A stretch of 52,733 nt of DNA from Rhodothermales bacterium (GTDB lineage: Bacteria > Bacteroidota > Rhodothermia > Rhodothermales > Bin80). A model generated the notes under the pieces. The model did no database searches. It saw only the letters and a program-made list of their open reading frames with translations, and was not told the DNA's origin. Where the stretch lies: assembly GCA_022822185.1 (NCBI GenBank), contig JAJECE010000046.1, forward strand, positions 1 through 52,733, read 5' to 3'. The position numbers and the translations under genes are program-made. This document shows, one piece after another, positions 4,701-28,805 of the stretch (position 1 is the first letter of the stretch; the number at the start of each line of letters is the position of its first letter).

Positions 4701-4749
4701 GTGCCTGCATTCAGGTTTGTGAAGCAATCTGAACCTGCTCTACACCTGA

Positions 4750-5388: not shown

Positions 5389-5451
5389 CGTTACAAACTT
5401 GCCGATTCTTGATTATAGCAAACAGGAGGATATCTCATGGTGCCTGCATTT

Positions 5452-5487: not shown

Positions 5488-5529
5488 GTGCACACGCAGC
5501 CAGACGCAAAATAGCGGGATCCGTGTGAA

Positions 5530-7305: not shown

Positions 7306-7435
7306 GGGATTTATGAAGGTAGAGAGGGAGATACGCTGTAAACGACCAACGGTTGCGCATCCCAGAAACTTCATACGAACCAGACGGTCCCCAAATGAGT
7401 TTGATCGGACATAATGACCGTTATTCTCCAACTGG

Positions 7436-7466
7436 TTTGCACTTTGTGAGTGCGGCAAGAATTTTG
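7436..7466 (+). promoter_or_regulatory. hrcA promoter candidate with overlapping inverted repeat
   Basis: TTTG at 7436-7439 and GAATTTTG at 7459-7466 are 19 bases apart. This fits the Bacteroidota -33/-7 pattern TTTG...TAnnTTTG with one mismatch, and ends 15 bases before the hrcA ATG. Between the boxes lies the inverted repeat GCACT-TTGTG-AGTGC (7439-7453). Its arms carry the GCACT/AGTGC core of the HrcA-binding CIRCE element, but the spacing is 5 bases rather than the 11 found between those cores in CIRCE. It is a plausible operator for autoregulation; unproven. Confidence 0.4.
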
Positions 7467-7481
7467 TGACTGAGACCACTG

Positions 7482-8588: not shown

Positions 8589-9201
8589 AAAAATTTCAGA
8601 GGAACAAGACGAATCCCTTGGGGGATCCCAATCCACAGAGACCGTTGAAGGTGCGGCTCAGAATGGAAATGAATCTATCTCGGAAACGGAATCCATACAG
8701 GATCCCCTGGCCCGGTGCGCTGAAGAATTGGCGGCGGAGAAAGATCAGAGGCTCCGGGTTGCGGCCGAGTTTGCAAACTACCGCCGACGCATAGAGAATC
8801 AGCGTACCGACTGGTCACTCCGTGCTCAGGCCGGCGTACTCCGAACCCTGCTGCCTATTCTGGATGATCTGGAGCGGTCTCTGACTGTGGCGGAGGAAGC
8901 CAAATCCGAAGACATTGCATTTCGATCCCTGCAGTCCGGTGTTCACCTCGTACGTGAGAATTTTGTCAGCGAACTGGAGAAGTTAGGACTCAAGCGCATC
9001 CAAACCGTGGGAACACTTTTTGATGAGCATCTGCATGAGGCGGTCGGACAGGCACCTGCCCCCGAAGGTGACGAAGATGGACACATACTGTACGAAAGCC
9101 AGGCAGGATATTGTCTGAGAGAACTGGTGCTCCGGCATGCAAAGGTGATTGTGGGGATTGCTCCTGCATCCACTGTTCCCGCGGAAGCGGATGTACAATG
9201 A
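8581..9201 (+). CDS. grpE: Nucleotide exchange factor GrpE
   Basis: GrpE releases ADP from DnaK and so resets the Hsp70 cycle. The 206-residue product has an acidic, low-complexity N-terminus (about 1-45, rich in Glu and Ser), a long helical stalk ([20 protein letters not shown], then [11 protein letters not shown]), and the C-terminal beta domain, with [28 protein letters not shown] and the closing RHAKVIVG. The length is normal. The start lies inside the end of hrcA (8-base overlap), and its TGA overlaps the ATG of dnaJ as ATGA, so the three are translated from one message. Confidence 0.96.
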
Positions 9202-10352
9202 GTGACTACTACGAAGTCCTGGGGATAAGCCGCGACGCATCCGCAGAAGAAATAAAGAAGGCCTATCGCAAGAAGGCGCTCAAAAATCACCCAGACCGAA
9301 ATCCAGGGGATAAGGCGGCCGAGTCCCGCTTTAAAGAGGCCGCGGTTGCGTACGAGGTTCTGAGTGATGAAAAGAAGCGTGAAATTTATGATCGCTACGG
9401 CGAAGCAGGCTTGCGTGGATCCGGAGGAGGGGGGCAATCCGGATTTACCGACGTAAACGATATTTTCAGTGCGTTCAGTGACATCTTTGGAAACTCAGCG
9501 GGAGGGGCATTTGACAGTTTCTTTGGCGGAAGACGGCAGCGAACCCGAGAACGGGGACAGCCAGGGGGAACCATTGCACAGCAACTGCCCCTAACGCTAG
9601 AAGAAATCGCAGACGGAACAGAAAAGCGCGTCAAAGTGCACCGAATGACTGCATGCCGGACCTGTGAGGGGAGTGGGGCAAAAGGGGGTGCTAGTCAATT
9701 AAAAACATGCAGTACCTGTAATGGGTCCGGGGAAGAGCGTCATGTACGACAGACCCCAATGGGACAGTTTATGAGCGTATCCGAGTGTGGCAGGTGCCGG
9801 GGCGAAGGGCTGCTGATTGAGGATAAATGTCCAGAATGCCGGGGGCAGGGGCGCCTTGATGGAGAATCCTCTATCAAGGTGAAAGTACCGGCCGGTGTAG
9901 AGGACGGGATGGTCATCAACCTGCGCGGACAGGGACATGCCGGGGCGCGAGGAGGCCGGCCAGGCGATCTGCGGATTGAGATCCGTGAGAAGGCACATGA
10001 GCACTTTATCCGCAGAGGCAGTGATTTGATTTACAATATGGAGATTTCTTTTCCCGATGCAGCACTGGGGACAGACATTGAGATACCCACCCTCACAGGG
10101 CGGGCAAGCATCACAATCGCTTCAGGAACCCAGTCTGGAAAGGTCCTGCGGATGCAGGGACGGGGACTGGGGCAACTCCGAAGCACCCGAAAAGGGGATC
10201 AACTCGTCCGAATTCGGGTATGGACCCCGCAGAATCTCTCCGCGTCCGACAAAAAAGCATTGGAAAAATTACGCGAATCCGAGACATTTCAGCCAGAGAA
10301 GACAGAGAAGAATAAAACGTTCTTTTCAAAAGTAAAGGATGCCTTTGCGTAG
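9198..10352 (+). CDS. dnaJ: Chaperone DnaJ (type I Hsp40)
   Basis: DnaJ hands unfolded proteins to DnaK and stimulates its ATPase. From the ATG that overlaps the grpE stop, the product has 384 residues. It has a J domain (1-70) with His31-Pro32-Asp33, a Gly/Phe-rich linker (about 75-115), and four zinc-binding CxxCxGxG motifs ([32 protein letters not shown]; about 150-225), followed by the two substrate-binding beta domains. The frame is open further upstream (to 9111), but the J domain and the operon overlap fix the start at 9198. All canonical type I parts are present. Confidence 0.97.
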
Positions 10353-10439
10353 CGGAATAAGCAGAGCAGGCGAATGAACGGAGCCGCTGACCTCCTGAAC
10401 GTACTTTAGAACCAGAGGCATTCTTCTTACCTACCTGAA

Positions 10440-10608
10440 AAGCGGGAACCTCGCTGGAAAATTCGTTCCTGTTCGCGTTGTTGTGCGGCATGAGGAAGAT
10501 CCTGTCAATGTGTAGTTCAGCCAGACACGGTCGTGTTGCCATGATGTATACGGGAGTGAAGTTGGCCGCAGATAAAATGGGAACCAATCCCCTGAAAGCG
10601 CATAGCAT
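10440..10608 (-). pseudogene. Possible decayed nucleotidyltransferase (NadD-like) fragment
   Basis: On the minus strand a short stretch reads SAANFTPVYIMATRPCLAEL followed by HIDRIFLMPHNN. It loosely recalls the start of nicotinate-nucleotide adenylyltransferases (GGxFNPVHxGH, then xLDRVLFxPxxxPPHK). The second histidine motif is lost, and the frame runs on into the antisense of dnaJ. A neighbouring frame reads LHSRIHHG at the same place, which would suit a frameshift. The resemblance is weak and may be chance. Confidence 0.2.
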
Positions 10609-10629
10609 CCTGATCAGGTTTATGTGATT

Positions 10630-10896
10630 ATGACAAATACGCTTTCAGTCTCTAACCAGTTCTCTAAAACAGGAGTTGGGCCAGAACAGGCTGAGGCCAT
10701 AGCGGATGTGATTGTAGATCCCGATGCCCAGAAAAATGAAAATCTCGCAATCAGGGAGTTTATGTATGATGCGTGCAGAGTTGTGCAGAGCAGAATAAAT
10801 GCTTGGCATGGCCGCATGTGTGCTCAAAAAAACTGGATTGTTGGAATGAGGACAGCGGTCACAGGTGCTTTGTTTGCCGGGGGACTCTTTTTCTGA
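10630..10896 (+). CDS. Small DUF1640/CCDC90-like protein, possibly truncated
   Basis: This 88-codon frame (a GTG two codons earlier is possible) begins MTNTLSVSNQFSKTGVGPEQ and AEAIADVIVD. That resembles the N-terminus of small DUF1640/CCDC90-type coiled-coil proteins, in which a 'gF...QAEAi' segment is followed by a coiled coil and one C-terminal membrane helix. Here the coiled coil (about 30-65) is short, and the hydrophobic tail (TAVTGALFAGGLFF) stops early, so it may be a worn or internally deleted copy. It stands alone in the 824-base space between dnaJ and leuS. The rest of that space (10897-11176) holds nothing I recognise beyond an AT-rich leader before leuS. Function is unknown; related proteins are often near mobile DNA. 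Confidence 0.4.
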   Translation: MTNTLSVSNQFSKTGVGPEQAEAIADVIVDPDAQKNENLAIREFMYDACRVVQSRINAWHGRMCAQKNWIVGMRTAVTGALFAGGLFF

Positions 10897-11176
10897 TACT
10901 TTTCGATAATCAGGAGGAAACGACAGATCTGCTTGCCTAAAAAACACCCCCGACCATCCTGTCTAGAAACTATATTCCTAGCGGCGTGAGATTCCGCACC
11001 CTTATATACATTCTCGATTTCTGTATGGACACCGCCAACCTCACGTCACTACGAAAATTCAGTTTTGTAATCCTAAACCCCGTAATTCACGCTTCCAATC
11101 CTGAAAATATTTGTTTCCCGTTCGGCGACTCCAACCTTGTTCGTGGAAAAACTAATTTCTAAGTTTCAATTAAAAA

Positions 11177-13774
11177 ATGGCGGTATATCCTTTTCGGAAA
11201 ATTGAAAGCCGATGGCAGACATACTGGGAGGAAAAGAAAACCTTCCGTACCCCCACCAAGGTCGATACGACCAAACCCAAATACTATGTGCTGGACATGT
11301 TTCCCTATCCCAGTGGGGCAGGGCTCCATGTTGGGCATCCCGAAGGGTACACGGCGACCGACATTGTGGCACGCTACAAGCGGATGCGCGGGTTCAATGT
11401 TTTGCATCCAATTGGATGGGATGCCTTCGGACTCCCTGCCGAACAGTATGCACTGCGGACAGGAACGCATCCGCGTATTACAACCGAACAAAATATTTGC
11501 CGGTTCCGAAAACAACTCAAATCCCTGGGCTTCTCCTATGACTGGGATCGTGAGATTGATACGACTGATCCCGGCTATTTCAAATGGACCCAGTGGATTT
11601 TCCTAAAACTGTTTGAACGCGGGCTGGCATATGAGGCTAAAGTGCCCGTATGGTGGTGTGAAGAATTAGGCACAACCCTCGCAAATGAGGAGGTGGTGGA
11701 TGGAAAGAGTGACATTGGCGGCTATCCCTGTGAGAGGCGGATGCTGCGGCAGTGGGTGCTGCGAATTACAGAGTATGCGGAACGGCTGCTGGATGGGTTG
11801 GAAGAGACGGACTGGCCCGTCAGCACCAAGGAAATGCAACGCAACTGGATCGGGCGCAGTGAAGGGGCGGACATTGAATTCCCCGTTCAGGATATGGATG
11901 CCGCCAGCATCCTCGTTTATACCACACGCCCGGACACGATCTTTGGGGCAACCTACATGGTGCTTGCTCCAGAGCATCCGATGGTAGACCGAATCTCTAC
12001 CGAAGTCCAGCAGGATGAAGTTCAAAACTACAAGGATCTGGCATCCCGTAAAAGCGATCTAGAGCGAACGGAACTCCAGAAAGAGAAGACAGGGGTGTTC
12101 ACGGGAGCATACGCCATCAATCCTGTCAACAAGGAATCCATCCCTGTCTGGATCGCAGACTATGTACTGTACTCCTATGGAACAGGGGCGATCATGGCGG
12201 TTCCAGGTCAGGATGAACGCGACTGGGCGTTCGCTGCAAAGTATGATCTCCCCATTCGCCGTACGGTTCAGCCGCCTCCGGATTTCACTGGACTGGCCTA
12301 CACAGGAGATGGCCCGGCAATGAACAGTGAATTTCTGGATGGTCTTCACATTGAAGATGCCAAAATACGCATCTTGGATTGGCTTGAGGAGCAGAAGGTG
12401 GGGTGCCGTAAAGTGAATTATAAATTGCGGGATTGGCTGTTTTCCAGGCAGCGCTACTGGGGCGAACCCATTCCGGTTGTTTTTCAGAACGAAGAAGTAC
12501 ACTCGTTACCCGAGAATGTGCTTCCGATCAATTTGCCTGAACTGGATGAGTTCAAACCAAGCGGAACCCCAGAGGGACCGCTTGCTTTAGCCACCGAGTG
12601 GCTCACGGTTACCAACCCTGATACCGGCGAGGTCGCTAGACGGGAGACCAATACTATGCCACAATGGGCAGGATCCTGCTGGTATTTCCTGCGCTACATT
12701 GACCCGCGCAACCCGGAACGAATGGTAGATCCCGAACTGGAAAAGTACTGGATGCCGGTGGATCTCTATATCGGTGGTGCAGAACATGCGGTTCTTCATC
12801 TGCTCTATGCCCGTTTCTGGCATATGGTGCTTTACGATGCGGGGGTGGTTTCAACGCCGGAACCGTTTGCAAAACTCGTTCATCAGGGAATGATTCTGGG
12901 CGAACTGGAATATACTGCCTGGCGCAGCAGCGCAACCGGACAATGGGTCAGCGCCGAAAAGGTCAGCGACGGAAAAGAAGTCCATACGGGGATAATCCTG
13001 GAACCGGTTCAGATTGATGTCGAGGCTGTCGCCAAAGATAGGGAGCGCTTTCTACTGAAAGATGCCCCCGATATCCAGTTGGATGTACGTGCATTCAAAA
13101 TGAGTAAAAGCCGTGGAAATGTTATCAATCCCGACGAGATCATTGAGCAGTATGGAGCAGATGCTTTCCGTCTCTATGAGATGTTTATGGGGCCTCTGGA
13201 ACAGGTGAAGCCGTGGAGCACTCGGGGGGTACACGGGACATTTCGGTTTCTTAGCCGTATCTGGCGACTGATCACAGAAAACCCGCTCAGTGAAAAAGAA
13301 CCGGATCGGAAACAGTTACGTATCCTGCATCAGACAATTGAGCGCGTGACCAATGACATTGAAAATCTGCGTATGAATACCGCCATCGCTGCATTGATGG
13401 AGTTCGTGAATGCAGCGTTCAAGTGGAAGGAACTTCCCCGCACGATTGCCGAGCCGTTTGTCCTTTTGCTTGCCCCGTTTGCGCCGCATATTGCAGAAGA
13501 GTTATGGTCTCGCTTTGGCTACAAAGACTCATTGGCCTATGCTCCCTGGCCGGAGTTGAATCTGGAATACCTTGCCGAGGAGTTAATCGATTTGCCAGTG
13601 CAGGTCAATGGCCGGGTTCGGGCAACGATCCGTGTTGCACCGGGGGCCGATAAGCAGAAGGTTCTTCATGTGGCAATACAGGAACCCAATGTAAAGCGAT
13701 TCCTGGGCGATGCTCCGCCACGCCGGGAGATTTATGTGCCTGGCCGGATCCTGAACCTTGTCGCCGCAAAGTAA
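11177..13774 (+). CDS. leuS: Leucine-tRNA ligase
   Basis: LeuRS charges tRNA-Leu and edits wrongly charged norvaline and isoleucine. The 865-residue product has the bacterial class Ia layout: catalytic fold with the HIGH box as HVGH (residues 51-54) and [13 protein letters not shown], the inserted CP1 editing domain (about 220-420, with [14 protein letters not shown] and the closing [15 protein letters not shown]), the KMSKS loop at 641-645 ([15 protein letters not shown]), and the anticodon-binding and C-terminal domains. The length is normal. The start [19 protein letters not shown] matches the family start. Its TAA overlaps the ATG of bshB1 by one base, so the two are translationally linked. 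Confidence 0.97.
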
Positions 13775-15248: not shown

Positions 15249-16997
15249 TCACTTTTTCGACATGAATGGTTTCTGAGCATCAACTCCCAGAATTTCGAAA
15301 GCCTTCTGTTGCGTCTTGCTGACCGTCTCCAGCATGATCACTTCTTTCTCTGTGTTCGTCCCTGTTTTCGGACGCACAACCAGTCGGCAAAGTCCCGCAA
15401 GTTCGTCCATCAGACTCGAAAAATCCATCACCTTTTCGTCCTCTTTCCCTTGTTTGGTCTGAACTTCCCCTTTCGCCTTGGGCAAATATCCGGCCCACTC
15501 TGCCATATTTTCACGCTGCACCTTTTTTTTCGCGGGATCATCCTCTGCATACAGCATCGGTGCCAGTTCCCGGCGCAGATGATACTCTACGTAATAAGCC
15601 AGCATACACAAAAAGACATGCGCAATCATCCGGTCTTTGTTTCGATGATACGTCGGACATGCATGGTGCGAGAGATGATTCATCGTACGGGAGGCAAACT
15701 CAACCATGGATAAACGCTTGTAATTCGCCACCAATTCTTGCGGTTCCGGCCCCTCCTTCATACTGGAACGGATGGCATACATGCCGTCAAGTCGCTCTGC
15801 CTGCGCAATCGCCTCCGTATTGCGGATGTAAGAAAAATGTCCATGCCGAATATCCAGCGTAAAAAAATTCCACATTTTGTGCTTCCCCACCACGCTCCCG
15901 ACCCGCACCCCAATAGCTCCCTGATCTTCCAACCTTTGCCCCTTTCGCCTTGTCACCTGCACAATTTCATCCAGTGCTTCCTCCGTTCTGGCCAAAAATT
16001 CTTCCCGCTGCCGTTTGCCCTTGTCTGCCTGCAAGGGATTCCTGTATAGGAGCAGACGCTCTTCCGGATATAGATGACTGCGGACTTCCACTAAATCCTG
16101 ATCATCAAACAGGCTCATTTGAATGTTTTCCTGTTCCATAACCTTGTGAATCTGACTCTTTTTCATACTGGTGATCCAGTCCAGCCCCGCGGGCATAACC
16201 TCTTTCTGGATGTGCTTTTGCTTCAAAATCTGCCGACATCCCACCAACACCATGTGCTTGAGTTCAAAGGTTTTCCGAATTTTGTCCACCTGGGTACTGA
16301 GAAACTTTCCATCGCCGGTATTATCGAAAAAGACATCCACCGACACTGGACAGCCATCAGGGGCGGTCATCAGACCAATAGCAATCTGCTCCGTGCCTGT
16401 CTTCCTGTCACGGTCGTACTCAAAGGCGGTAATTTCACTTTTCTTGTCATCCATATAACTGCCTGCGACATCACAGAGTACCATGCCTGACTCGGTGAGA
16501 TGCCGTTTAGCCAGACGGCGCTCAATGGCCGTCTTGTGTTTGACCAGTTTCCCCATCGCACGATAGAGATCATCCTGATCCACGCGGTTGAGGGCAAGTT
16601 CATCATTGAGTGTGCTGGCGTTACTGGCAACATCCAATATGGTACCGGTCGCCAGATTGCTTTGCTCCAGCACCCGTACCGCAATCATACCCAGCACCAG
16701 CCGGCGAAAGCGGGAATTATTTGGGGAAATCAGGTTCGGAATATTCAACTTTTCCATGATCCCCAGGACCGCAGCAACATGTCCATGAGGGGTATTGCTG
16801 ACAATGGTGAACGCATCTTCAACGGACTTAACGGCAATGCCCCCTTTCAAGAGGATTCGGATTCCGTCAATGACCGGTTGGGGGAGTTTGGTGAGATTTG
16901 CGAGGGTGATTTTCTGGGATTTTCCGTCGATCCATTTGGATTCACGGATGAGGATGGTCGGGGACCAGCGGCGGTTCTTCACGGTGTCAACAAACAT
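15249..16997 (-). CDS. IS1634-family DDE transposase
   Basis: The transposase cuts and joins the element's ends using an RNase H-like DDE site. From the ATG at 16997 the product has 582 residues; the frame opens two codons earlier with a TTG. The family pattern is clear: a first acidic region in VLCDVAGSYMDDKKSEIT (YDVTxxYFE in relatives), AFEYDRDRKTGTEQIAIGLM and SVDVFFDNTGDGKF, and the characteristic late block RNKDRMIAHVFLCMLAYYVEYHLRREL. The frame is intact, so the element may still be active. It points toward the leuS-bshB1 side. Confidence 0.92.
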   Translation of the reverse strand: MFVDTVKNRRWSPTILIRESKWIDGKSQKITLANLTKLPQPVIDGIRILLKGGIAVKSVEDAFTIVSNTPHGHVAAVLGIMEKLNIPNLISPNNSRFRRLVLGMIAVRVLEQSNLATGTILDVASNASTLNDELALNRVDQDDLYRAMGKLVKHKTAIERRLAKRHLTESGMVLCDVAGSYMDDKKSEITAFEYDRDRKTGTEQIAIGLMTAPDGCPVSVDVFFDNTGDGKFLSTQVDKIRKTFELKHMVLVGCRQILKQKHIQKEVMPAGLDWITSMKKSQIHKVMEQENIQMSLFDDQDLVEVRSHLYPEERLLLYRNPLQADKGKRQREEFLARTEEALDEIVQVTRRKGQRLEDQGAIGVRVGSVVGKHKMWNFFTLDIRHGHFSYIRNTEAIAQAERLDGMYAIRSSMKEGPEPQELVANYKRLSMVEFASRTMNHLSHHACPTYHRNKDRMIAHVFLCMLAYYVEYHLRRELAPMLYAEDDPAKKKVQRENMAEWAGYLPKAKGEVQTKQGKEDEKVMDFSSLMDELAGLCRLVVRPKTGTNTEKEVIMLETVSKTQQKAFEILGVDAQKPFMSKK

Positions 16998-17134
16998 GAA
17001 CAAGAATAGATTGGTTGTTTTTTAATGTCTATCACTGGACGAATGTACGGAAATGCTCACTCAGTCAGAAGGCCACTCATATTCTTTGAATTTCCACACT
17101 TCTCGAAGTCCTTGACCGTCCATGAAAAAACCGC

Positions 17135-17365: not shown

Positions 17366-17854
17366 CTACATCCCAAGTTGCCCTTTCATATCGTCCATCA
17401 CCGTATCATCAATCACAGAAAGATTTTTCGCCCGGGTATAATCTTCAATGTTGCGCTTCACCATCGGCTGAACATAGTCTGGGATTGCTTCTAAACGTGT
17501 TAAAGCCTCCGGTGTCCAGGTAAGAGCAGATTCCGTCTCCGCCGATGCAATCGCATCACTGATGACCCCGGTAAAGGGACATTTTCCACCGGACGGAACA
17601 GGTTCCGAAGCAGACTCTTCATGGCTTACCGCCAGATTGGAACGTAACGTCTCCATCGGCTCCGCGGGAGTCGTTCGGCCGCCAATCTTGACCCCCAAAG
17701 AACGTACCATCTGGGTTTCAGCCTTATTCGTCAGCATTGCCATCTGAACATCACACGCAGAACACTTATACACAATAGACATTGAGCCGTCAAACGGGCC
17801 ATGCGTCGAATGCAGGTTCATCGGCTGATCACAGGGGACACAAAGAAATTTCAT
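17366..17854 (-). CDS. Zinc-ribbon/PCP_red domain protein
   Basis: The 162-residue protein has two CxxC knuckles at the N-terminus (Cys5/Cys8 and Cys31/Cys34, a zinc-ribbon-like pair), a disordered middle with one more cysteine (Cys92, in GGKCPFTG), and a C-terminal PCP_red domain (111-160: LTWTPEALTRLEAIPDYVQP, then RNIEDYTRAKNLSVIDDTVM). PCP_red is the small C-terminal domain of BchB/ChlB, the subunit of dark-operative protochlorophyllide reductase, where it helps close the substrate pocket. No photosynthesis gene is in the window, so another tetrapyrrole or protein partner is likely. It is the last gene of the ten-gene operon and overlaps the Mrp gene by 4 bases (ATGA). The role is inferred from context only. 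Confidence 0.8.
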   Translation of the reverse strand: MKFLCVPCDQPMNLHSTHGPFDGSMSIVYKCSACDVQMAMLTNKAETQMVRSLGVKIGGRTTPAEPMETLRSNLAVSHEESASEPVPSGGKCPFTGVISDAIASAETESALTWTPEALTRLEAIPDYVQPMVKRNIEDYTRAKNLSVIDDTVMDDMKGQLGM

Positions 17855-18750
17855 GAAAATTGAGGTTTAATCCAGGATACCATGCGCTGCGTAATTTCTA
17901 AGATCGCAGCGGCTGCCGGCTTGGATGGATGATGTTTAAGGTACGATTCGCCGCTGTCCAGATAATAGGCAAGCCCCTGATCATAAGGGATTGCCCCCAG
18001 ATACGGGACATTATGTGCCTCGGCCAGGTCCTTTACTGTGGAGTCTCCCCTGAAAAACTGATCCCGGTAATCACACGCCGGACAGACCACCGCACTCATA
18101 TTCTCAATCACCCCCGCTACCCTGACCTTGGCAATTTCCGTTGCCATCGAGATTGAGCGCCCAACCACCTTCATCGCCACTAATGACGGGGTTGTCACGA
18201 CCACAGTACCCGATAAATTGGGAAGCAGGTCTGCCAGATTCTGGAGACGCTCCGCACCCGGAGGCAAATCAATCAATAAGACATCCAGATCGCCCCAGTC
18301 CGTATCCGAAAGTAACTCCCGCAATGCACTCATCTCCACCATGGAGCGCCATGTATATGCGCCCTGCTGCGTGTTTGCCTCCCATACAAGCGGAGTATAT
18401 TCACCGGGCAAAAACATCCCCATAGACATGACCGGGATACCAAACTCATTCCGGGCCGCCGCCATGGAACCATTCCGGGACAAAGGCTTGAAATCAGAAA
18501 CCCCCATCATCTGCATCATACACGGCCCGTTCAAATCGGCATCCATAACTCCCGTACGAATCCCGCTCCGGGTTAAGGCATCTGCCATACATGCAGTCAC
18601 CGTGCTTTTTCCAACCCCGCCCTTCCCGCTCATCACCGCAATCATCGTTCGGATACGCTTGAGGCGCTGATTGAGCCGGTCAAGTTGTTCGGCAACCTGC
18701 CCCAATACATCGGAGCCGCCATCGGTCGCTATGTCGTTGTAGTTCTTCAC
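17851..18750 (-). CDS. Mrp/NBP35-type P-loop ATPase
   Basis: The 299-residue protein belongs to the Mrp/ApbC branch of deviant Walker A ATPases, which carry and insert 4Fe-4S clusters. Visible are the P-loop SGKGGVGKST (41-50, with the signature lysine), the switch DADLNGP (about 70-76), LLIDLPPGAERLQ (about 158-170) and the bridging CxxC (Cys223, Cys226, in VVCPACDYRD). It lacks the N-terminal DUF59 domain of many Mrp proteins; instead about 35 residues of predicted helix precede the P-loop. It overlaps the Usp fusion gene upstream and the PCP_red gene downstream by 4 bases each, so it is tightly coupled to both. A likely task is feeding iron-sulfur clusters to the radical SAM enzyme, the ferredoxin or the other cofactor proteins of this operon; this is inference. 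Confidence 0.88.
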   Translation of the reverse strand: MKNYNDIATDGGSDVLGQVAEQLDRLNQRLKRIRTMIAVMSGKGGVGKSTVTACMADALTRSGIRTGVMDADLNGPCMMQMMGVSDFKPLSRNGSMAAARNEFGIPVMSMGMFLPGEYTPLVWEANTQQGAYTWRSMVEMSALRELLSDTDWGDLDVLLIDLPPGAERLQNLADLLPNLSGTVVVTTPSLVAMKVVGRSISMATEIAKVRVAGVIENMSAVVCPACDYRDQFFRGDSTVKDLAEAHNVPYLGAIPYDQGLAYYLDSGESYLKHHPSKPAAAAILEITQRMVSWIKPQFS

Positions 18751-20669
18751 GGGGCCTCGGCTGCCTGATCCCTGATCATCTCCTCCATCAACTTTAACCC
18801 ATCCTTGATTCCCTCTTCCGTAATCGCCAGCGTAATCAGATCCGTCTTTCGCGCACGCGCAACGGCTTCGATCCGTTCCTTGGTACGGGTCCGCATAAAT
18901 CCCTCAGGAACCCGATTCAGGCGTACATGCGCGTCCGGTACCCACATAAATTCTCCGTCCTGAACCAGATCCGCCATCGCCTTGCGGGTAGCTGCATCCC
19001 GGGATCCGCCATCATGCCCGCCCGGGGTCTTCAAATGCCCGCCCGGGGTGAGATTCTGCAATTCTTCCGCAGTCCCTGCGATCACATTGCGCACCATGTC
19101 CAGTGTGATGGTCGGAACGCGCTGCACGCGGGCACGCTTTTCAATCTGCGCTTTCGCACGGCGCATTTGATAACCATCGGGGATCGTACGAAGTTCCTTC
19201 AATGCATCCTTGCTCCACTTCAGACGGACATCATCAAATGTATCCTGCTCCTGCGTTCCCCCCTCCAACTTGGCCAACTGATCAATCGCCTCCTTGTCCA
19301 GCTTCTGAAACGCCTCCGCAGAACTGCCGCACACTGCACACCGGACCGGCTCAAAGTCCCGTGCAGCATACCCGCATCGGCTGCAAATCCAGGTCACCGA
19401 GTCCTTCGCAGCAATTTCTTTGGCGGCCGTGTCCTCTGCAATGATCCCCATCTTGATCATCGACGAACGGGGCAGGATATTGCCCATGGCCTGCTCTACA
19501 ATTTTGCGGGTAATCACAGAATGGCCCCGCTCCATTGCCCAGCGGTGGATTGTAGTCCGAGCAATTCCACGCGCAAAATCAGGGGCTGTATTTAAGAGCC
19601 GGGTCGCCGGCTCCGTCCACAGCATGGACTCCTCTGCACTCACATCCACCGGGGGAACATAGCGCTGACTGGATAACAGGATATTACAGGGGGCCTGACG
19701 AAGGAGGTTTTCGGTATTGCTCCCAATATCCATATCCTCGTCACTGTGTACGCCGATACGTCCCAACACCAGAAGCCACGGGTTTTCGCGCCGTACATAC
19801 TGGAGCATCTTCTCAAATGCCTTTCCATCCAGAAGTGTGATCTTCAGGTTCACCCCCGAATCGGCAGCGATCCGCCTTGCAATATCCAGATGCGACTGAT
19901 AGATCTTGGCCAGCCCGGTGTCTATCACCTCTTCATGGAGTTGCTCCTGCTCTTTGAACTTAAACACCTTCGAAGCCTTTTCGGTGAGCACATTCACAAT
20001 GCTGTTGAACATGGCATAATGCAGATAAGGATCGTACACCGATACCGCCTCCACCTGACGACCCGTCTTTTTGCCTAGTTCCAGCGCCGTACGCAGTCCC
20101 GCGAACGATTCCGGACTGCCATCAATCCCGACCACAATATTGCCCACAGGCGTTCCATCTTCGGTCACATCTTCCAGATCCACCTTCTTGATCACCAGTG
20201 TATCGGTCCGCACCCGTCGCGTGACCCGCTCACAGACACTCCCCAACACACTGTCCTTCACCGCCCCCAGCCCCAAAGCTCCCATAATAACTAACTCATA
20301 GTCACTCTCCTCAATATCCTTAGCAATCACCTTCCAGTTCTTTCCATCGTACATCTTGGGCTCAAACGGAATCCCCGCTTCTTTGCACCGCTGCTCTGCA
20401 ACCACCAGATAGGAGTCGCTGATGAGTTCCAGCCCCATGGTGATGAGCGTATCATGGATCTTTCGCTGCTTCTCCATTGCATCTTCAATCAGATACTCTT
20501 CGGGGAGCGTATACTCCATCTGCTTAAACCGGTAGTCATGCATCCGGGCTGCATATGCATGACTCGCCGTCACAGTCGACTCAAACCGCCCCGCCAACTC
20601 AATCGCCATATCCACCGCACTAATGGAGTGCTCCGAATTGTCAACCGGAACAAAAATCTTTTTGTACAT
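18747..20669 (-). CDS. Fusion: two UspA domains, three PCP_red domains and a rubredoxin-like knuckle
   Basis: This 640-residue protein joins modules not normally found together. UspA domain 1 (1-162) and UspA domain 2 (175-335) both keep the ATP-binding pattern G2xG9xG(S/T): Gly130/Gly133/Gly143-Ser144 and Gly303/Gly306/Gly316-Ser317. A first PCP_red domain follows (350-398, MLWTEPATRLLNTAPDFARG). Then comes a rubredoxin-like knuckle (WICSRCGY at 427-434 and VRCAVCGS at 442-449; cysteines 429, 432, 444, 447). A second PCP_red (483-531, LKWSKDALKELRTIPDGYQM), a glycine/proline/histidine linker with a short repeat (TPGGHLKTPGGHDGG), and a third PCP_red (574-622, FMWVPDAHVRLNRVPEGF) close the chain. 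There is no signal or membrane segment, so it is cytoplasmic. It may be an ATP-dependent scaffold for tetrapyrrole or iron-sulfur chemistry; function unknown. Confidence 0.85.
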   Translation of the reverse strand: MYKKIFVPVDNSEHSISAVDMAIELAGRFESTVTASHAYAARMHDYRFKQMEYTLPEEYLIEDAMEKQRKIHDTLITMGLELISDSYLVVAEQRCKEAGIPFEPKMYDGKNWKVIAKDIEESDYELVIMGALGLGAVKDSVLGSVCERVTRRVRTDTLVIKKVDLEDVTEDGTPVGNIVVGIDGSPESFAGLRTALELGKKTGRQVEAVSVYDPYLHYAMFNSIVNVLTEKASKVFKFKEQEQLHEEVIDTGLAKIYQSHLDIARRIAADSGVNLKITLLDGKAFEKMLQYVRRENPWLLVLGRIGVHSDEDMDIGSNTENLLRQAPCNILLSSQRYVPPVDVSAEESMLWTEPATRLLNTAPDFARGIARTTIHRWAMERGHSVITRKIVEQAMGNILPRSSMIKMGIIAEDTAAKEIAAKDSVTWICSRCGYAARDFEPVRCAVCGSSAEAFQKLDKEAIDQLAKLEGGTQEQDTFDDVRLKWSKDALKELRTIPDGYQMRRAKAQIEKRARVQRVPTITLDMVRNVIAGTAEELQNLTPGGHLKTPGGHDGGSRDAATRKAMADLVQDGEFMWVPDAHVRLNRVPEGFMRTRTKERIEAVARARKTDLITLAITEEGIKDGLKLMEEMIRDQAAEAP

Positions 20670-20691: not shown

Positions 20692-21018
20692 TCAATAGGT
20701 ATAAGGAATTCGGTCACGCACATACCGAAGCCGGTCAATCACATACTCCATCCCTGAATAATCATGCAGGGTTACAGCATTCAGCAGGGCTGCATCCAGA
20801 AACGGTTCGCAATCCGGAAGATCCTTTGATGCCTCTATACAGGCAATGAACCGGCTGAGTTCGTAGCGAACTTTCACGAATTGATTCCAGATATCGGAAT
20901 CCGGATCCTGTCTGGCAATCCACCGGCTGAGGCGCCGGACTTCCAGGCCAAGGATCGGCGGCACCATCTGTCGGAACTGATCAACCGGAATGTATTGGAT
21001 CTCGTTTTCAACCATCAT
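20692..21018 (-). CDS. Hypothetical protein in the bd-like operon
   Basis: A 108-residue, mostly helical, soluble protein that I do not recognise. It begins MMVENEIQYIPVDQFRQMVP and has two cysteines (in RFIACIEASKDLPDCEPFLD), too few for a cluster of its own. It overlaps the upstream ferredoxin gene by 4 bases and is 22 bases from the Usp fusion gene, so it is certainly part of the operon and probably a partner of one of the two. Confidence 0.75.
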   Translation of the reverse strand: MMVENEIQYIPVDQFRQMVPPILGLEVRRLSRWIARQDPDSDIWNQFVKVRYELSRFIACIEASKDLPDCEPFLDAALLNAVTLHDYSGMEYVIDRLRYVRDRIPYTY

Positions 21019-21220: not shown

Positions 21221-22468
21221 CTACACCAGATGCGTGGGCTTTTTGTACACATTCGCCGGCATCCCTGCAAACCCGTTTCCCCGCTTCATCCCACTCAGTG
21301 CATGGTTCATTACTTCGGTCGTGACCTTCCCGATTCCTTTACTCCTCGCATAGGCTTCCACACCTTTGCGCGTCTTTTTTCGGATAAAACTGATCGGGAT
21401 CCGCATCAAACGCTCCTCTGCAGATGGGGCCCACTGCAATGCGGACTGCGATAAGGCCAAACCTGTCGGCTGATATCTGCAGGCAGGATCCTCACTCAGA
21501 TAATCACCCGTTGCCGCAAATGCACGACACCGGCAGCCACCACATAAATTCTGGAACTCACACCTGCCACACCGCCCCTTCAACTTTGCCGGGTCTCTGA
21601 GTTCTGCAAATACCGAAGAATCATTCCAGATGGTGGTGAACGTCTGCTCCAGCACGCTCCCCGCCACCACATCCATATACGGACAGGGAGTCACATTCCC
21701 TTCGGGGGTAATCCTGCAGTACTCGGTTGCCGCCATGCAGCCGCCACTTTCCATCCCGCCCCGCCCCTTTTCATAAGCGATCTGCTTGAACTGCGGAGCA
21801 CATTTGCTGCGTACGAGCATGGGACGATAGTCGTCCTGCCAGTCAATCAGTCTGGTGAGCATGGACTCGGTTGCCGCAGCAGACAAATCCGTCATACCCT
21901 GCCCCCGGCCCGTCTGCACCAGAAAATACAGATTGAAGGACCAGGCACCATGCTCACGCGCAAAATCCAGAAGATCCGGAACCTCATCATAATTCTCCTC
22001 CATCACTGTCGTCTGCACCAGTACTTCCAGCCCTTCCTCCTTACATACCCTGAGTGCACGTACCGAATGCTGCCATGCATTGCGACCACCCCGGAACGCA
22101 TTGTGGCGGTCAGGATCTGCGGAGTCAATACTGATTCCGACCCCTTTCACCCCACATTCGACCATCTTGCGAGCCACTTCTCTGGTCACCAGTACACCAT
22201 TGGTTCCCATCACAACCCAGATTCCCATATCACTTGCCGCTTGCGCAATCCTGTAAATATCCTTTCGCAGGAGTGGTTCTCCACCGGTAAGGATGAGCAT
22301 CTCTGTGCCCAGATTCTTCATCTCGCCGAGCACCTCCATACACTCATCAGTAGTCAATTCACGTTCCGCAGCCCGACCGGCAGATAAATAACAGTGTGGA
22401 CACTGCAGATTACACTTTTTGGTGAGATTCCACGAAACCAGCGACGGTATGTAGGTCTTTGTGCTCAC
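21221..22468 (-). CDS. Radical SAM/SPASM protein of the AhbD/NirJ type with C-terminal PCP_red domain
   Basis: The 415-residue enzyme has the radical SAM cluster motif at Cys19, Cys23 and Cys26 (KKCNLQCPHC), then the LTGGEPLLRKDI and MGTNGVLVTREVA patterns and ISIDSADPDRHNAFRGG. Its SPASM part carries many cysteines for auxiliary clusters (SGGCMAATEYCRITPEGNVT, PCPYMD, then GRCGRCEFQNLCGGCRCRAF and DPACRY). This layout is that of AhbD and NirJ, which act on the side chains of haem precursors. An added PCP_red domain follows (344-393: LQWAPSAEERLMRIPISF). A tetrapyrrole substrate is therefore likely, but whether it makes ordinary haem, a d1-like haem or something new is not visible. It lies 3 bases after the cytochrome/EB_dh gene. 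Confidence 0.88.
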   Translation of the reverse strand: MSTKTYIPSLVSWNLTKKCNLQCPHCYLSAGRAAERELTTDECMEVLGEMKNLGTEMLILTGGEPLLRKDIYRIAQAASDMGIWVVMGTNGVLVTREVARKMVECGVKGVGISIDSADPDRHNAFRGGRNAWQHSVRALRVCKEEGLEVLVQTTVMEENYDEVPDLLDFAREHGAWSFNLYFLVQTGRGQGMTDLSAAATESMLTRLIDWQDDYRPMLVRSKCAPQFKQIAYEKGRGGMESGGCMAATEYCRITPEGNVTPCPYMDVVAGSVLEQTFTTIWNDSSVFAELRDPAKLKGRCGRCEFQNLCGGCRCRAFAATGDYLSEDPACRYQPTGLALSQSALQWAPSAEERLMRIPISFIRKKTRKGVEAYARSKGIGKVTTEVMNHALSGMKRGNGFAGMPANVYKKPTHLV

Positions 22469-24013: not shown

Positions 24014-24841
24014 TTAATGAGGCATGCCCTGTGCACGTGGTTCATAGCCTGTGTACTCATACAGAAACAGAATCACATCCCAGATTTCTTCTTCGGTCAG
24101 GAACAGCTCCCAGGCGGGCATGGCACTAGACCAGGGGGTTGACTCGGAAGGGAGCCCGGGGGCTCCTTTTGCGATACGCCAGAACAAATAGGATTCCTGA
24201 AGCATCGCAATCGTCGTTGCATCATTGAAATTGGCGGGTAGTGGATCATAACCATGTGCGAACATTCCTGCCCCCTGCATATTGTCTCCGTGACAATAGA
24301 AGCAGTTCTGAAAATAAATCCGCCGCCCGTTCGCAACATGCGCTGCAAACGCCGCCTCGTCGGTATGCTCCAGCTCCCGGTATGGATTGTTCGCGGTCGC
24401 CAGATCAATAGAGTTCCCCGCAAATGTAATGGAAGATGGCGGAGGAGGATGGATCGTCCGACCGCTGGAGGGGGGCTGCGGCGCTTCATTCATACTGGCA
24501 TACGTCCAGGCGGCAACCGCCGCGGGGATCACAAGAAGAACAATCACCAAAGCAATACGGTACTCTTGGGCTACCATGAACCGGACAATGGACTGTCGCG
24601 CCTCCTCTAATTCCTCATTGTCTGCCGACAGGTATGCCATCAGCGCAATCGTAATGATCGCCATGAACAGCACGATAATGGAATTCGGGAGCGGGGGATT
24701 AATTCCATACGAAAAAGCAGCCCAGAGCGCAACCCACCAGATTCCCAGCCAGGCGATGCGATTGAGTTGGATCCAGCGCGTTAACACCTGCTGAATCAGA
24801 ACCATCACGGCTGCAATTCCTAACAGTACAAATAAATTCAT
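24014..24841 (-). CDS. Membrane protein with C-terminal cytochrome c domain
   Basis: The 275-residue protein has four predicted membrane helices (about 1-19, 28-46, 52-71, 96-114), a proline-rich linker (118-137) and a periplasmic cytochrome c domain with one CxxCH (180-184, CFYCH). The likely methionine ligand lies in SAMPAWELFLTEEEIWDVI. It is 29 bases after the dihaem cytochrome gene and 12 bases before the cytochrome/EB_dh gene. It is probably a fixed subunit of the oxidase complex, filling the place of CydB as a membrane partner, though its helices do not resemble CydB. Confidence 0.85.
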   Translation of the reverse strand: MNLFVLLGIAAVMVLIQQVLTRWIQLNRIAWLGIWWVALWAAFSYGINPPLPNSIIVLFMAIITIALMAYLSADNEELEEARQSIVRFMVAQEYRIALVIVLLVIPAAVAAWTYASMNEAPQPPSSGRTIHPPPPSSITFAGNSIDLATANNPYRELEHTDEAAFAAHVANGRRIYFQNCFYCHGDNMQGAGMFAHGYDPLPANFNDATTIAMLQESYLFWRIAKGAPGLPSESTPWSSAMPAWELFLTEEEIWDVILFLYEYTGYEPRAQGMPH

Positions 24842-24870: not shown

Positions 24871-25662
24871 TTACATGGAGGCCAGATAATCCACCAATGC
24901 CTGCAGTTCCGAAGTAGAAACCTGCTCATAAAAATTGTTTGCATTCAACATCGTTGACATCACCCCCTCCACATACCCTTCGGCAATGACCTCATCTGGA
25001 TCTACGATGGCCTCATAAATCTCCGCGCGGGTCATGCGCTGTCCAAGGCCTTGCAGCGTGGGCCCTGCCCCGGCAGTTCCGTCTAATGAATGGCAGGTAT
25101 TGCACAGATAGGTGGTAAAAACCGTTTCTGCGTCTCGGTTGCCGCCAACCGCAACGGCGGGGGCTGCATCCTGCGCCGGGGCCTGCCCCTGCCACTGCAG
25201 CGTGGTCTGCATCGTGACCGTTGGCGTTCCTCCAAGCGACTGTAAATAGGCAATCACCGTTAGAATTTCCTGATCCGTCAACGCAATCGGAGGACGGGCA
25301 ACATTCGGCATGCCGGCAACATACCCCTCGACCACATAGGCGTTGGGATCATACATGGACTCTGCCAGATAGTCTACATCACTCTGCCCCGGGACGCGCT
25401 CGGCGGCAATCGCCCCGATATTGTCCAGATCCGGAAACCGCAGTCCCGTTCCGTGATCGCCCATCGTATGGCAGGTCAGGCAGGTCCCTTTGCCTGCGAC
25501 AATTTCCTCGCCAATCGGGATCATCTCTTCAATGGTCAGATCACTGGCGATCTCAATATCCTCCGGGGGATCCGTCCGTTTCTGCGGTACCCATAAACTC
25601 ACGTACCAGTAGAAGACGCTGACCACGATGGTGAATCCGAATATTTGCAGGGCCTGTTTCAC
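24871..25662 (-). CDS. Membrane-anchored dihaem cytochrome c
   Basis: The 263-residue protein has an N-terminal uncleaved helix (about 7-24, IFGFTIVVSVFYWYVSLWVP) and two cytochrome c domains with CxxCH at 61-65 (CLTCH) and 187-191 (CNTCH), joined by an alanine/proline-rich linker. Probable methionine ligands lie in YVAGMPNVARPP and in VEGVMSTMLNANNF. Each domain resembles the small c-type domains fused to or paired with oxidases and nitric oxide reductases. The gene follows the CydA-like gene after 26 bases, so it is the likely direct electron donor of that protein. Confidence 0.88.
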   Translation of the reverse strand: MKQALQIFGFTIVVSVFYWYVSLWVPQKRTDPPEDIEIASDLTIEEMIPIGEEIVAGKGTCLTCHTMGDHGTGLRFPDLDNIGAIAAERVPGQSDVDYLAESMYDPNAYVVEGYVAGMPNVARPPIALTDQEILTVIAYLQSLGGTPTVTMQTTLQWQGQAPAQDAAPAVAVGGNRDAETVFTTYLCNTCHSLDGTAGAGPTLQGLGQRMTRAEIYEAIVDPDEVIAEGYVEGVMSTMLNANNFYEQVSTSELQALVDYLASM

Positions 25663-25688: not shown

Positions 25689-27491
25689 TCACGCGGGTTC
25701 GGTGGAGACGGTGGTTTCCTCTTCATTCCACCGGGACCCTGATTTGGGGGTCCAGTCCTTTCGCCCGGAAAGACCGGCCAGAAAGAAAACAATGGCAATG
25801 AGCAGGAAGAAGACAATCACAATCGCACTGACTACGCCCCCGGCAAATCCCAGCGTAGGCGTAAATGCATCCACCGAGGTATCCCGCATCACGCCATACA
25901 CATGCCAGTGCTGCCGCATTCCTGCACGCACATACCCCATCAGGCCCATCAGCCAGGTAAAGGTGATGGCGAGGAAGAACAGGGCATACTGGGATCGGGC
26001 AGAGATTTTTCCCCAGACGATTTCACCACGGGACTTTGCATTCTTGAACAGGAACAGATCAATCACCGTCACTGAGGCCATCGCAAACAGGACCGACAGA
26101 ACCTGTGGACGGCTGAGCCCGATCCGTGTTTGTGCATCTACAAAGTATCCATACACGCCAAGGAAGACTACATAGATCACCACGACCGCAAAAATACCGA
26201 ACTGGATCCAGTTGCCGATCCTGGCCCAGGAGACCGTAGCCTCCTTGTTGGCCCGGCGATAGAGCAAAAAGCTGACATAGGTGGTAAGGATCAAAAGATT
26301 CACCGCGGTATTCTTTGCACTCATGACTCCCAGCACATTCAGAATGGGGTGATGAGAGCCGCCCATTGCCCGGGCCTCCTCTACGGTTGCAACGAGCGAA
26401 TGCGGTGTCGCCCACACGATAAAGCAAAGTGTAATGACCCCCAGAAGGTACTTGATAAACCCCCGAAAACGCTCTGCCCCCGGAATTCGGGCCATACTCA
26501 GCCAGAGATAGTAGTTTGCCGCCAGAAACAAATTCCCGATCAGGACCGCCTGCACAATAAAAAGCCACGAAAACGTCCCTCCCATGAGCGTAATCCCGAG
26601 ACTCTGATCATAGGCATAGATCTCTACCCCCAGCCAGTATCCCGCAAACGGGAGCGGAAGGAGTGCACAGATTGCGACAAAAATGCCGATATATCCCATC
26701 CAGTCGTAATGCGCCTTGGCCGCCAGCGTCTTTGCTCCCAGAAACTTGAATGCACCATACGCGGCTCCAATCGCACCACCGAATGCGACATTCGCAATCA
26801 GTCGGTGGATATTGATCGGCATCCAGGTGTAGTTATTGATTGCTTCCCAGAGGCTGGTCAGATTGCCCATATCATCAATGCCGTTGGGCGTATTCATAAA
26901 GGTCAGCCACGCATTGGCGATAAACATAATCGCCGTCCCCACAAGGTTGAGCATCAAGCCGATGAAGAGATGCAGGCGGGGAGAAAGTTTTCCCCAGCCG
27001 TAATAGTACGCGTACAGAAAAAACGCTTCCAGGAAAAAAAGCAGGACATACGGCAGAAAGGTCCAACTGAAAATCTTCACCAGATACTGCGTCAATGCCG
27101 GATAGAACACCAGCAGCCCAAACGTGAGCAGCGCTCCGAGCGTGGCGGTAAAGGAGAATGATACGGAAAGGAGTTTCGTGAAGTCGTAGGCCAGTTGATC
27201 GTAGCGCTTGTCTCCGGTCCGATATCCGATGAATTCAATCACCAGTGCAAACATGGGAACTGCCAGCACAAACGCGGCAAACATCAGGTGCAGTTCCGCG
27301 ACGGCCCACATCAGCACGCGGCTGCTAATGAAAGGCAGCGCCCTGTATTCAGGGGCTGCCTCCTGTGGCATCCCCCACGCCGGGCCTGCTACCAGTGCCA
27401 GCAGCACGAAAGCCGCCAGACCTGCGGGGAGGCCTCTCCACCATGCACCTTGACAGGTGGTACGCACGACCGGAATCGAATCAGTAGTCAC
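25689..27491 (-). CDS. CydA-like subunit I of a bd-superfamily oxidase
   Basis: The 600-residue protein starts with GTG and an added N-terminal hydrophobic leader (about 15-40), then a CydA-type core of about nine helices. Probable matches to the E. coli subunit are His68 (AELHLMFAAF, for His19), Glu155 (LLFFLEAFFLYAYYYGW, for Glu107) and His229 (INIHRLIANV, for His186). The GMRQHWHVYG stretch parallels the GRQPW motif. Aligned by eye on FFLE, the place of the haem-d ligand Glu99 is Pro147. No cydB is present. The published bd superfamily classification separates quinol oxidases from OR-C and OR-N types that lack the quinol site; the three adjacent cytochromes c fit such a type. It is the first gene of the operon. 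Confidence 0.88.
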   Translation of the reverse strand: MTTDSIPVVRTTCQGAWWRGLPAGLAAFVLLALVAGPAWGMPQEAAPEYRALPFISSRVLMWAVAELHLMFAAFVLAVPMFALVIEFIGYRTGDKRYDQLAYDFTKLLSVSFSFTATLGALLTFGLLVFYPALTQYLVKIFSWTFLPYVLLFFLEAFFLYAYYYGWGKLSPRLHLFIGLMLNLVGTAIMFIANAWLTFMNTPNGIDDMGNLTSLWEAINNYTWMPINIHRLIANVAFGGAIGAAYGAFKFLGAKTLAAKAHYDWMGYIGIFVAICALLPLPFAGYWLGVEIYAYDQSLGITLMGGTFSWLFIVQAVLIGNLFLAANYYLWLSMARIPGAERFRGFIKYLLGVITLCFIVWATPHSLVATVEEARAMGGSHHPILNVLGVMSAKNTAVNLLILTTYVSFLLYRRANKEATVSWARIGNWIQFGIFAVVVIYVVFLGVYGYFVDAQTRIGLSRPQVLSVLFAMASVTVIDLFLFKNAKSRGEIVWGKISARSQYALFFLAITFTWLMGLMGYVRAGMRQHWHVYGVMRDTSVDAFTPTLGFAGGVVSAIVIVFFLLIAIVFFLAGLSGRKDWTPKSGSRWNEEETTVSTEPA

Positions 27492-27632: not shown

Positions 27633-28805
27633 ATGCTCCAAAGATTTAACGCTTGGCTTGACGAATACCGTGAGATCGCCTTTGATCTGATCCGGATTTA
27701 TCTGGGCATTGGATTGCTCGCACGGGGCATCCTCTTTTTGATGAACGCTGCCACCTTCGTCGCACTCTTGCCCGAAGATGCACCGATGTGGCTACATGCG
27801 GACTGGGCGCATCTCAGTGTCGCGGGGGTCCATATCGCAGGTGGGCTGGCGATCACCGTTGGGATCTGGACCCGCATTGCGGCCCTCTCGCAGGTCCCGA
27901 TCCTTTTCGGGGCGGTCTTTCTGAGTCTGGGCAGTCTTTTTTCGGCAAACCAGTCACTGGAACTCTCTTCGCTTGTCTTCTTTATCCTGCTTCTGGTTGT
28001 AATTTGCGGATCCGGCCGCTGGAGTATTGATCAGAGGCTCCAGGCTTCGCAGAATGAACTCCAGCGAATTCTGGCCAAGCTTTATCCCTTTCGCTCACAT
28101 GCCTTTGATCTCTTACGCATGTATCTGGGACTTGGTCTGCTTGTACGGGGGATGCTCTTCATTGCCGATGCCAACAGTTTTCTGGATCTGATTGGGGCAC
28201 ACCCGTCCGATATACTCCGCTCAACCGTCCTTTTGCACTATGTTGCGCTCTCCCATCTACTTGGTGGATTCATGCTTCTCACCGGGCTGCTTTCCCGGAT
28301 CGGGGCCCTCATTCAGATCCCAATCCTAATCGGAGCCGTGTTTGTCGAAGAAATGTCCGGGGGGTTGACTGCAGGGACGCAGGGCTTCGAAGTGGCGATG
28401 TTAACCCTGTTTCTTCTGATTCTGATCTTCCTCTACGGATCCGGGGACATCTCCAGCGATCACTACCTGTTTCGACAGGGTACGGGCCCGACACCGACAC
28501 GGACGACGGTGTCCGCACATGCCGCGAAAATCCTGAGTCAGGATGTTCCGGAAGATCGCCAATTTGCGGATCCCGTTGAGATTCTCGCCGTCCCGGAGGC
28601 ACTGACCTCGGAAGAATCTATCCATGAGATCCTGTCCAATCCTCACATTGTGGCTCAGGCGCATTACAGTTTCTGGGGCTGGGCAATGTTTTTACTCGAT
28701 GTCACCCCGCAGCCCAAAGAAATCACCTTCAGGGATGTACACACCGGGAAAATCCTGCGCCGCAGCAAAGATCCCCGTGTTCTCCAGCAGTTCAGATACC
28801 ATTAA
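27633..28805 (+). CDS. Tandem DoxX-family membrane protein
   Basis: The 390-residue protein contains two DoxX-like four-helix units, about 15-130 and 152-290. Each starts with the same pattern (FDLIRIYLGIGLLARGILFL; FDLLRMYLGLGLLVRGMLFI), which indicates an internal duplication, and each has a GIWTRIAALSQVPIL/GLLSRIGALIQIPIL repeat. A soluble C-terminal tail (about 295-390) matches nothing I know. DoxX-type proteins are found in quinol-linked redox and thiol-stress settings. The gene diverges from the bd-like operon across a 141-base promoter region, and its 3' end overlaps that of ybeY by 14 bases on the opposite strand. A link to the oxidase is suggested by position only. Confidence 0.82.
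   Translation: MLQRFNAWLDEYREIAFDLIRIYLGIGLLARGILFLMNAATFVALLPEDAPMWLHADWAHLSVAGVHIAGGLAITVGIWTRIAALSQVPILFGAVFLSLGSLFSANQSLELSSLVFFILLLVVICGSGRWSIDQRLQASQNELQRILAKLYPFRSHAFDLLRMYLGLGLLVRGMLFIADANSFLDLIGAHPSDILRSTVLLHYVALSHLLGGFMLLTGLLSRIGALIQIPILIGAVFVEEMSGGLTAGTQGFEVAMLTLFLLILIFLYGSGDISSDHYLFRQGTGPTPTRTTVSAHAAKILSQDVPEDRQFADPVEILAVPEALTSEESIHEILSNPHIVAQAHYSFWGWAMFLLDVTPQPKEITFRDVHTGKILRRSKDPRVLQQFRYH

Follow-up and report, generated by a model that had tools for sequence, protein, structure and literature searches.

A CydA-like protein linked to three cytochromes c in a Rhodothermales bacterium is probably the membrane subunit of a widespread, cytochrome-c-fed relative of bd oxidase

Relatives of the CydA subunit of cytochrome bd have been described as bd-like oxidases in nitrite-oxidizing and anammox bacteria. 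The Nitrospina bd-like oxidase has 14 helices, 3 of which replace the Q-loop, lacks the quinol residues, retains the haem b ligands, and is encoded alongside mono- and dihaem cytochromes c (PMC3578206). In Nitrospira, bd-like_3 lies beside alt_NxrC_2 and 2 cytochromes c, and a gene set of this kind is strongly transcribed (PMC6606698). For the OR-N types of the bd superfamily, cytochrome c has been suggested as the electron donor (PMC10839748), and a CydAA' pair of 2 homologues has been proposed, as a hypothesis only (PMC10839748, PMC12342949). No report on the biochemical activity of the bd-like branch was found in the literature searched.

Here, we analyzed a CydA-like gene and its surroundings in a window of 52,733 nucleotides (the whole stretch of DNA considered) from the genome of a Rhodothermales bacterium (3.7 Mb, 98.8% complete), whose nearest named relatives are metagenome-assembled genomes of Rhodothermales and Rhodothermaceae. 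The gene product is probably the membrane subunit of a widespread relative of bd oxidase that is fed by cytochrome c rather than by quinol. The features described for the Nitrospina and Nitrospira units that were tested were all found here; hence, the protein belongs to an already known but biochemically uncharacterised family.

Table 1. Genes of the bd-like unit and its surroundings; coordinates are those of the window
Feature	Coordinates	Strand	Evidence
bd-like (CydA-like) membrane subunit	25689..27491	(-)	Pfam, PDB profile alignment, hhalign, family conservation, model
CYC1: N-terminally anchored dihaem cytochrome c, two CxxCH	24871..25662	(-)	Pfam Cytochrom_C, two stretches
CYC2: N-terminal hydrophobic helices and monohaem cytochrome c domain	24014..24841	(-)	Pfam Cytochrome_CBB3
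CYC3EB: dihaem c, EB_dh/DMSO-reductase-type-II gamma haem b domain, C-terminal TM helix	22472..24001	(-)	Pfam
Radical SAM/SPASM protein, NirJ2/AhbD (haem-modifying) group, C-terminal PCP_red	21221..22468	(-)	TIGR04055, TIGR04545, PF08369
H108, small conserved protein	20692..21018	(-)	homologues in 20/60 relative loci
Two Usp domains, three PCP_red stretches, weak rubredoxin-like stretch	18747..20669	(-)	Pfam; homologue in 56/60 loci
Mrp/ApbC-type iron-sulfur carrier ATPase, probable accessory	17851..18750	(-)	PF10609 E=4e-66; 19/60 loci
162-aa PCP_red protein, probable accessory	17366..17854	(-)	PF08369 E=6.4e-12; 10/60 loci
Protein with two DoxX-like halves	27633..28805	(+)	
IS1634-family transposase	15249..17003	(-)	204 bits

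A CydA homologue heading a four-gene unit

The bd-like gene encodes a protein of 600 aa, which matches PF01654 (Cyt_bd_oxida_I) over residues 57 to 294 (89.2 bits, E=2.9e-25; Pfam) and, in a phmmer search of solved structures, the CydA chains of Mycobacterium smegmatis bd-II and Geobacillus (E=1.6e-13 and 1.1e-10). An AlphaFold2 model built on 46 aligned relatives (pLDDT 83.7, pTM 0.83) could be aligned over residues 47 to 583 with all 10 solved CydA structures (Z 31.7 to 34.7; VIA-align), the next rows below CydA being alternative complex III subunits with Z of 22.8 and lower. An initial sequence-only reading, which had identified the protein as a CydA homologue, is thereby confirmed on this point. 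The N-terminal leader that it had noticed is also present: the first ~40 residues are hydrophobic, with a helix spanning residues ~14 to 38. Beyond CydA, the model matches an NrfD-type subunit of alternative complex III, 6btm_F, over 319 residues (rmsd 3.3, Z 22.8), as well as PsrC (Z 16.2), hinting that CydA and NrfD-type proteins may have a common fold.

The bd-like gene comes first in the unit and is followed directly downstream by the genes for 3 c-type cytochromes, CYC1, CYC2, and CYC3EB, in agreement with the sequence-only reading. CYC3EB is alt_NxrC-like, with 2 Cytochrom_C domains, an EB_dh domain scoring marginally above the Pfam cut-off (34.8 versus 33.3 bits), and a match to TIGR03477 (E=3.8e-15) that falls under the cut-off of that model. 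Relatives of the bd-like protein were found in at least 373 stretches across 84,980 species genomes. Among the best 80 of these at least 373 loci, counting for each gene only those with enough flank, CYC1 lies beside the bd-like gene in 76 of 77, CYC2 in 74 of 74, and CYC3EB in 66 of 66. The single CYC1 exception is a locus of Scalindua (L119) in which the bd-like protein carries CYC1 as a C-terminal fusion; in another locus (L117), a one-haem c domain is fused to it. The unit occurs in at least 9 phyla, with the tree including Rhodothermota, Bacteroidota, Calditrichota, Fibrobacterota, Verrucomicrobiota, Acidobacteriota, Gemmatimonadota, Myxococcota, and Planctomycetota, and this conservation across phyla led us to reject chance gene pairing.

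Some loci display further arrangements. A myxococcotal locus (L080, positions 2287 to 12738) carries 2 divergent whole units back to back on opposite strands, with bd-like proteins 66% and 47% identical to the one studied here. In the window, the gene for the DoxX-like protein is divergent from the bd-like gene, and homologues of this DoxX-like protein are encoded next to the unit in 14 of the best 80 of at least 373 loci.

Across the 98.8% complete host genome, no PF02322 match was found, that is, cydB is absent from the unit, as initially proposed, and was not found elsewhere in the genome either. Neither PF01654 nor the family's own profile (A1) detected a second CydA homologue in the same genome, so neither a CydAB nor a CydAA' pairing is possible in this host. 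The genome encodes 2 haem-copper oxidases, pointing to an aerobic respiratory chain. Among the best 80 of at least 373 loci, genes for alternative complex III, identified from the multihaem, Fe-S, and Mo-like features of its subunits, adjoin the unit in 35 and haem-copper COX1 in 13; given these neighbours, the unit belongs to a high-potential cytochrome c chain. Nitrite oxidoreductase was considered as a partner of the unit in the host and rejected, as it was not found in the genome: no full-length DMSO-reductase-family molybdoenzyme is encoded there, with a single partial molybdopterin-family match of 22 bits. The unit is thus not tied to nitrite oxidoreductase in this host, which weakens the idea that it serves that enzyme.

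Haem-ligand and quinol-site residues

Residue equivalences to E. coli CydA were derived from sequence alignment, not from superposed structures; the numbering is anchored on the E. coli sequence, and the same equivalences were obtained in alignments to PDB sequences. His68, Glu155, His174, and His229 correspond to E. coli His19, Glu107, His126, and His186, respectively, in accordance with the assignment that the sequence-only reading had made for all but His174. The 4 residues are invariant in a set of 85 family sequences, and Glu155 is changed to Asp or Gln in 3 divergent relatives. The equivalent of Lys57, at position 106, is a conserved Lys or Arg, and M515-G-L-M518 and R522/R526 are invariant in the family.

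The position of Glu99 is occupied by Tyr148 in every alignment, including HMMER profile alignments with 5DOQ, 9R2G, and 6RKO, hhalign, and MAFFT. Tyr148 is invariant in the family (85 of 85 sequences, and 28 of 28 in a wider set including 3 Scalindua proteins), whereas all 30 canonical CydA sequences have Glu at this site. None of the 85 family sequences has a Glu within positions 143 to 151, and the alignment to structure-solved CydA proteins likewise found no conserved Glu at the haem d position. The sequence-only reading was therefore correct in that Glu99 is lacking but not in its choice of Pro147 as the replacement. That choice came from an ungapped alignment to E. coli on the FFLE motif, which missed Leu101, an extra residue of E. 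coli CydA and E. coli bd-II that is absent from Geobacillus (PMC6853902, PMC8585947). The spacing between Glu99 and Glu107 is 8 in E. coli and 7 in Geobacillus and other short-spaced canonical CydA proteins; the Leu101 insertion, together with 3 independent alignments, led us to reject Pro147 as the Glu99 counterpart. Nor does the substitution amount to loss of the main haem d ligand, as had been implied: in the bd-II structure this ligand is His19, with Glu99 5.1 Å away (PMC8585947), and the His19 equivalent is invariant here.

Residues beyond those first singled out, namely Glu445, Met393, Lys252, and Glu257, have also been lost. E. coli Glu99 and Glu445 are ligands of, or face, the 2 active-site haems (PMC6853902). 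Leu517, in the motif WLMGLMGYVR, aligns with the b595 ligand Glu445, and no acidic residue is found within positions 503 to 526 in any of the 85 family sequences, with Glu527 present in 2 of them; Met515 and Met518 are candidates for the role of Glu445. In the alignment, Met393 is replaced by Val464 and the quinol-loop residues Lys252 and Glu257 by Gly299 and Gly304, whereas in the model 3 helices (308 to 335, 340 to 360, and 390 to 413) take the place of the Q-loop. Loss of the Q-loop and of the quinol residues, combined with the strict linkage to 3 cytochromes c, makes a cytochrome c donor likely and upholds the earlier view that quinol is not oxidised by the classical route.

A haem-c-tailed CydA-like type from Planctomycetota (L175 and L180) presents the opposite of the bd-like pattern: both active-site Glu residues are kept, the Glu445 equivalent being read directly from the motifs GEWAREMLRKPY and GEFVREGARKPY, and His186 of haem b558 is lost. 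Loss of Glu99 and Glu445 is thus not general to CydA homologues without the canonical quinol set-up. Proteins of this type have a C-terminal haem c domain and are accompanied by a membrane protein that matches no Pfam family; L175 lies beside a Rieske gene.

The linked radical SAM/PCP_red cassette

The radical SAM protein encoded next to CYC3EB scores 344.6 bits with TIGR04055 and 309.6 bits with TIGR04545, each under the 500-bit cut-off. PCP_red, known as the C-terminal domain of the protochlorophyllide reductase BchB, occurs in 3 proteins of the cluster (Table 1). H108 has no match in Pfam or NCBIfam, and the transposase gene lies just past the accessory genes.

Among 59 related genomes (the host's own included), 20 contain the bd-like gene. 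A close homologue of the radical SAM enzyme is present in 19 of these 20 genomes versus none of the 39 others, and in the single exception the contig ends inside CYC3EB (Fisher p ~1e-14, computed with 40 instead of 39 negatives and on genomes that are not independent). The presence of the set is patchy within families and even within a genus, so the bd-like and radical SAM genes are gained or lost together. The linkage extends beyond these relatives: Scalindua locus L138 includes both a PCP_red-bearing radical SAM gene and a Usp-PCP_red gene, and a more distant radical SAM homologue is found in 23 of the 24 genomes tested from Acidobacteriota and other groups, the best hits being mostly 43% to 66% identical.

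The host genome yields 2 ferrochelatase-family matches and no NirS, so there is no obvious need for the radical SAM enzyme in making either ordinary haem or the haem d1 of NirS. A role as the host's only haem b synthase is unlikely in view of the former, and the idea that this NirJ-like enzyme serves a cd1 nitrite reductase was rejected in view of the latter. The enzyme may tailor a haem for the bd-like complex, the plain alternative being operon linkage without a cofactor role. In a more specific form of this proposal, the complex would hold a radical-SAM-tailored haem, d1-like or otherwise altered, at His68/Tyr148, and the NirJ/AhbD-like enzyme, the PCP_red/Usp proteins, and Mrp would constitute a dedicated cassette for its making and insertion. 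Although we consider this form quite unlikely, it would, if true, add a third chemical solution for cytochrome-c-driven reduction of O2 or NO, beside haem d and haem-copper. The companion radical SAM gene offers a concrete, testable lead on both cofactor and function.

Proposed function and relation to known systems

We give an even chance to the reading that the bd-like protein is the catalytic membrane subunit of a cytochrome-c-fed reductase, most likely of O2 but possibly of another oxidant. Four points of this reading are inferred, namely which haems are bound, the route of the electrons, the substrate, and how protons are taken up: electrons from the cytochromes c would enter the bd-like subunit, probably via a low-spin haem on His229, and move on to a haem that His68 binds on one side and Tyr148 flanks on the other. 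There, O2 or a different small oxidant (NO, for example) would be reduced, with protons arriving from the cytoplasm near Lys106 and Glu155. In the present host, the complex would work without nitrite oxidoreductase. The CydA fold over the whole length and the conservation of His68, His174, His229, Glu155, and Lys/Arg106 argue for this reading, as do the strict four-gene unit, the L119 and L117 fusions, the neighbouring alternative complex III (35/80) and COX1 (13/80) genes in the best 80 of at least 373 loci, the lost quinol residues, and the aerobic chain of the host. It is also consistent with transcription of the Nitrospira genes (PMC6606698) and with the donor suggested for OR-N (PMC10839748). 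Counting against O2 as the substrate are the 3 copies in anammox Scalindua, the metabolism of which is anaerobic, and the 2 haem-copper oxidases that the host already possesses. Furthermore, Glu99 and Glu445 are absent family-wide, yet kept in L175 and L180, and O2 chemistry may accordingly not have been retained.

Occurrence in anaerobic anammox bacteria would also fit a complex whose main task is not O2 reduction but electron exchange between the quinone pool and high-potential cytochromes c, either by running electron transport in reverse or by acting like complex III. Such a role has been proposed for the bd-like unit of Nitrospira, Nitrospina, and anammox bacteria (PMC3578206, PMC6606698), and here both acidic active-site ligands are lost and the active-site set is altered, whereas the low-spin His229 is kept. 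The resemblance of the model to NrfD-type alternative complex III subunits (6btm_F, Z 22.8) points the same way, but may reflect merely a common helical arrangement. However, the protein has lost the Q-loop and every canonical quinol-site residue, and in 35 of the best 80 of at least 373 loci the neighbouring alternative complex III already provides quinol:cytochrome c chemistry. On balance, we regard a quinone-linked role as unlikely, though far from negligible.

The substitution of Tyr148 for Glu99 at the substrate haem, together with the presence of the family in anammox bacteria, raises the further prospect that another small ligand, namely NO, nitrite, or peroxide, is reduced for detoxification or respiration. 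His/Tyr haem environments are found in cd1 nitrite reductase, and Tyr ligation in catalase. Yet no nitrogen-oxide gene is conserved beside the unit, the host lacks NirS, and such a substrate is purely putative, which renders this explanation improbable. Finally, a structural or electron-conducting anchor that performs no reduction itself, with the cytochromes c feeding, for example, a haem-copper oxidase, would accord with the loss of 2 haem-ligand Glu residues and with the COX operon directly adjacent in 13 of the best 80 of at least 373 loci, but is very improbable, because the operon is not adjacent in most loci and the invariance of His68, Tyr148, Glu155, and the GLMG...R...R motif across phyla is more constraint than an anchor requires.

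Whether the preferred reading of a cytochrome-c-fed reductase of O2 holds matters beyond this genome. In genome papers, bd-like proteins are listed as putative terminal oxidases, although neither carboxylate haem ligand of the known active site survives in this family, in which one of the two places is taken by Tyr throughout. Either O2 reduction tolerates the Glu-to-Tyr change and the ligand loss, or an oxidase has been attributed to organisms that lack it. Aerobic-type lineages commonly carry the unit. The literature searched contained no statement on the Glu-to-Tyr change or on the radical SAM linkage, an absence that is not proof of novelty.

Compared with canonical CydAB (E. coli, Geobacillus, and Mycobacterium), the bd-like protein shares the fold, the His19, Glu107, His126, and His186 equivalents, and a Lys or Arg at the place of residue 57, and differs in the change of Glu99 to Tyr, the loss of Glu445 and Met393, the replaced Q-loop, the absence of CydB, and the strictly linked cytochromes c. 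It resembles the OR-N and OR-C types (Murali, Gennis and Hemp 2021, via citing papers) in having no quinol site, no CydB, and a presumed cytochrome c donor (PMC10839748); unlike in the CydAA' proposal for OR-N (PMC10839748, PMC12342949), the host has a single CydA homologue by both Pfam and the family profile. The linked radical SAM enzyme is similar to NirJ and AhbD (345 and 310 bits with their models) but not clearly either of the two, since its scores are below the cut-offs of 500, it carries a C-terminal PCP_red domain, and its host has ferrochelatase and no NirS.

The closest match is to the bd-like oxidases of nitrite oxidisers and anammox bacteria (PMC3578206, PMC6606698), the architecture and gene set of which fit those found here, in line with the earlier placement in a non-quinol branch of the bd superfamily. 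Likened by published description for Nitrospira and Nitrospina and by sequence for Scalindua, the shared features include ~14 helices with 3 in place of the Q-loop, absent quinol residues, and haem b His residues kept in the CydA-like N-terminal half, as well as the four-gene make-up with a monohaem c, a dihaem c, and a membrane-anchored dihaem NxrC-like protein. Scalindua sediminis (G059) has 3 separate bd-like units (L137, L138, and L119), and L138 also includes an octahaem cytochrome and a CarboxypepD_reg-domain protein. The bd-like protein of the window is 42% to 53% identical to the 3 Scalindua proteins, L138 has the same gene order, and the family including these 3 proteins forms one clade apart from canonical CydA in a quick tree with long branches. 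Unlike the nitrite oxidisers, the Rhodothermales host has no nitrite oxidoreductase, an enzyme whose association with the unit is ecological and does not define the protein, and its unit is linked to the radical SAM/PCP_red cassette.
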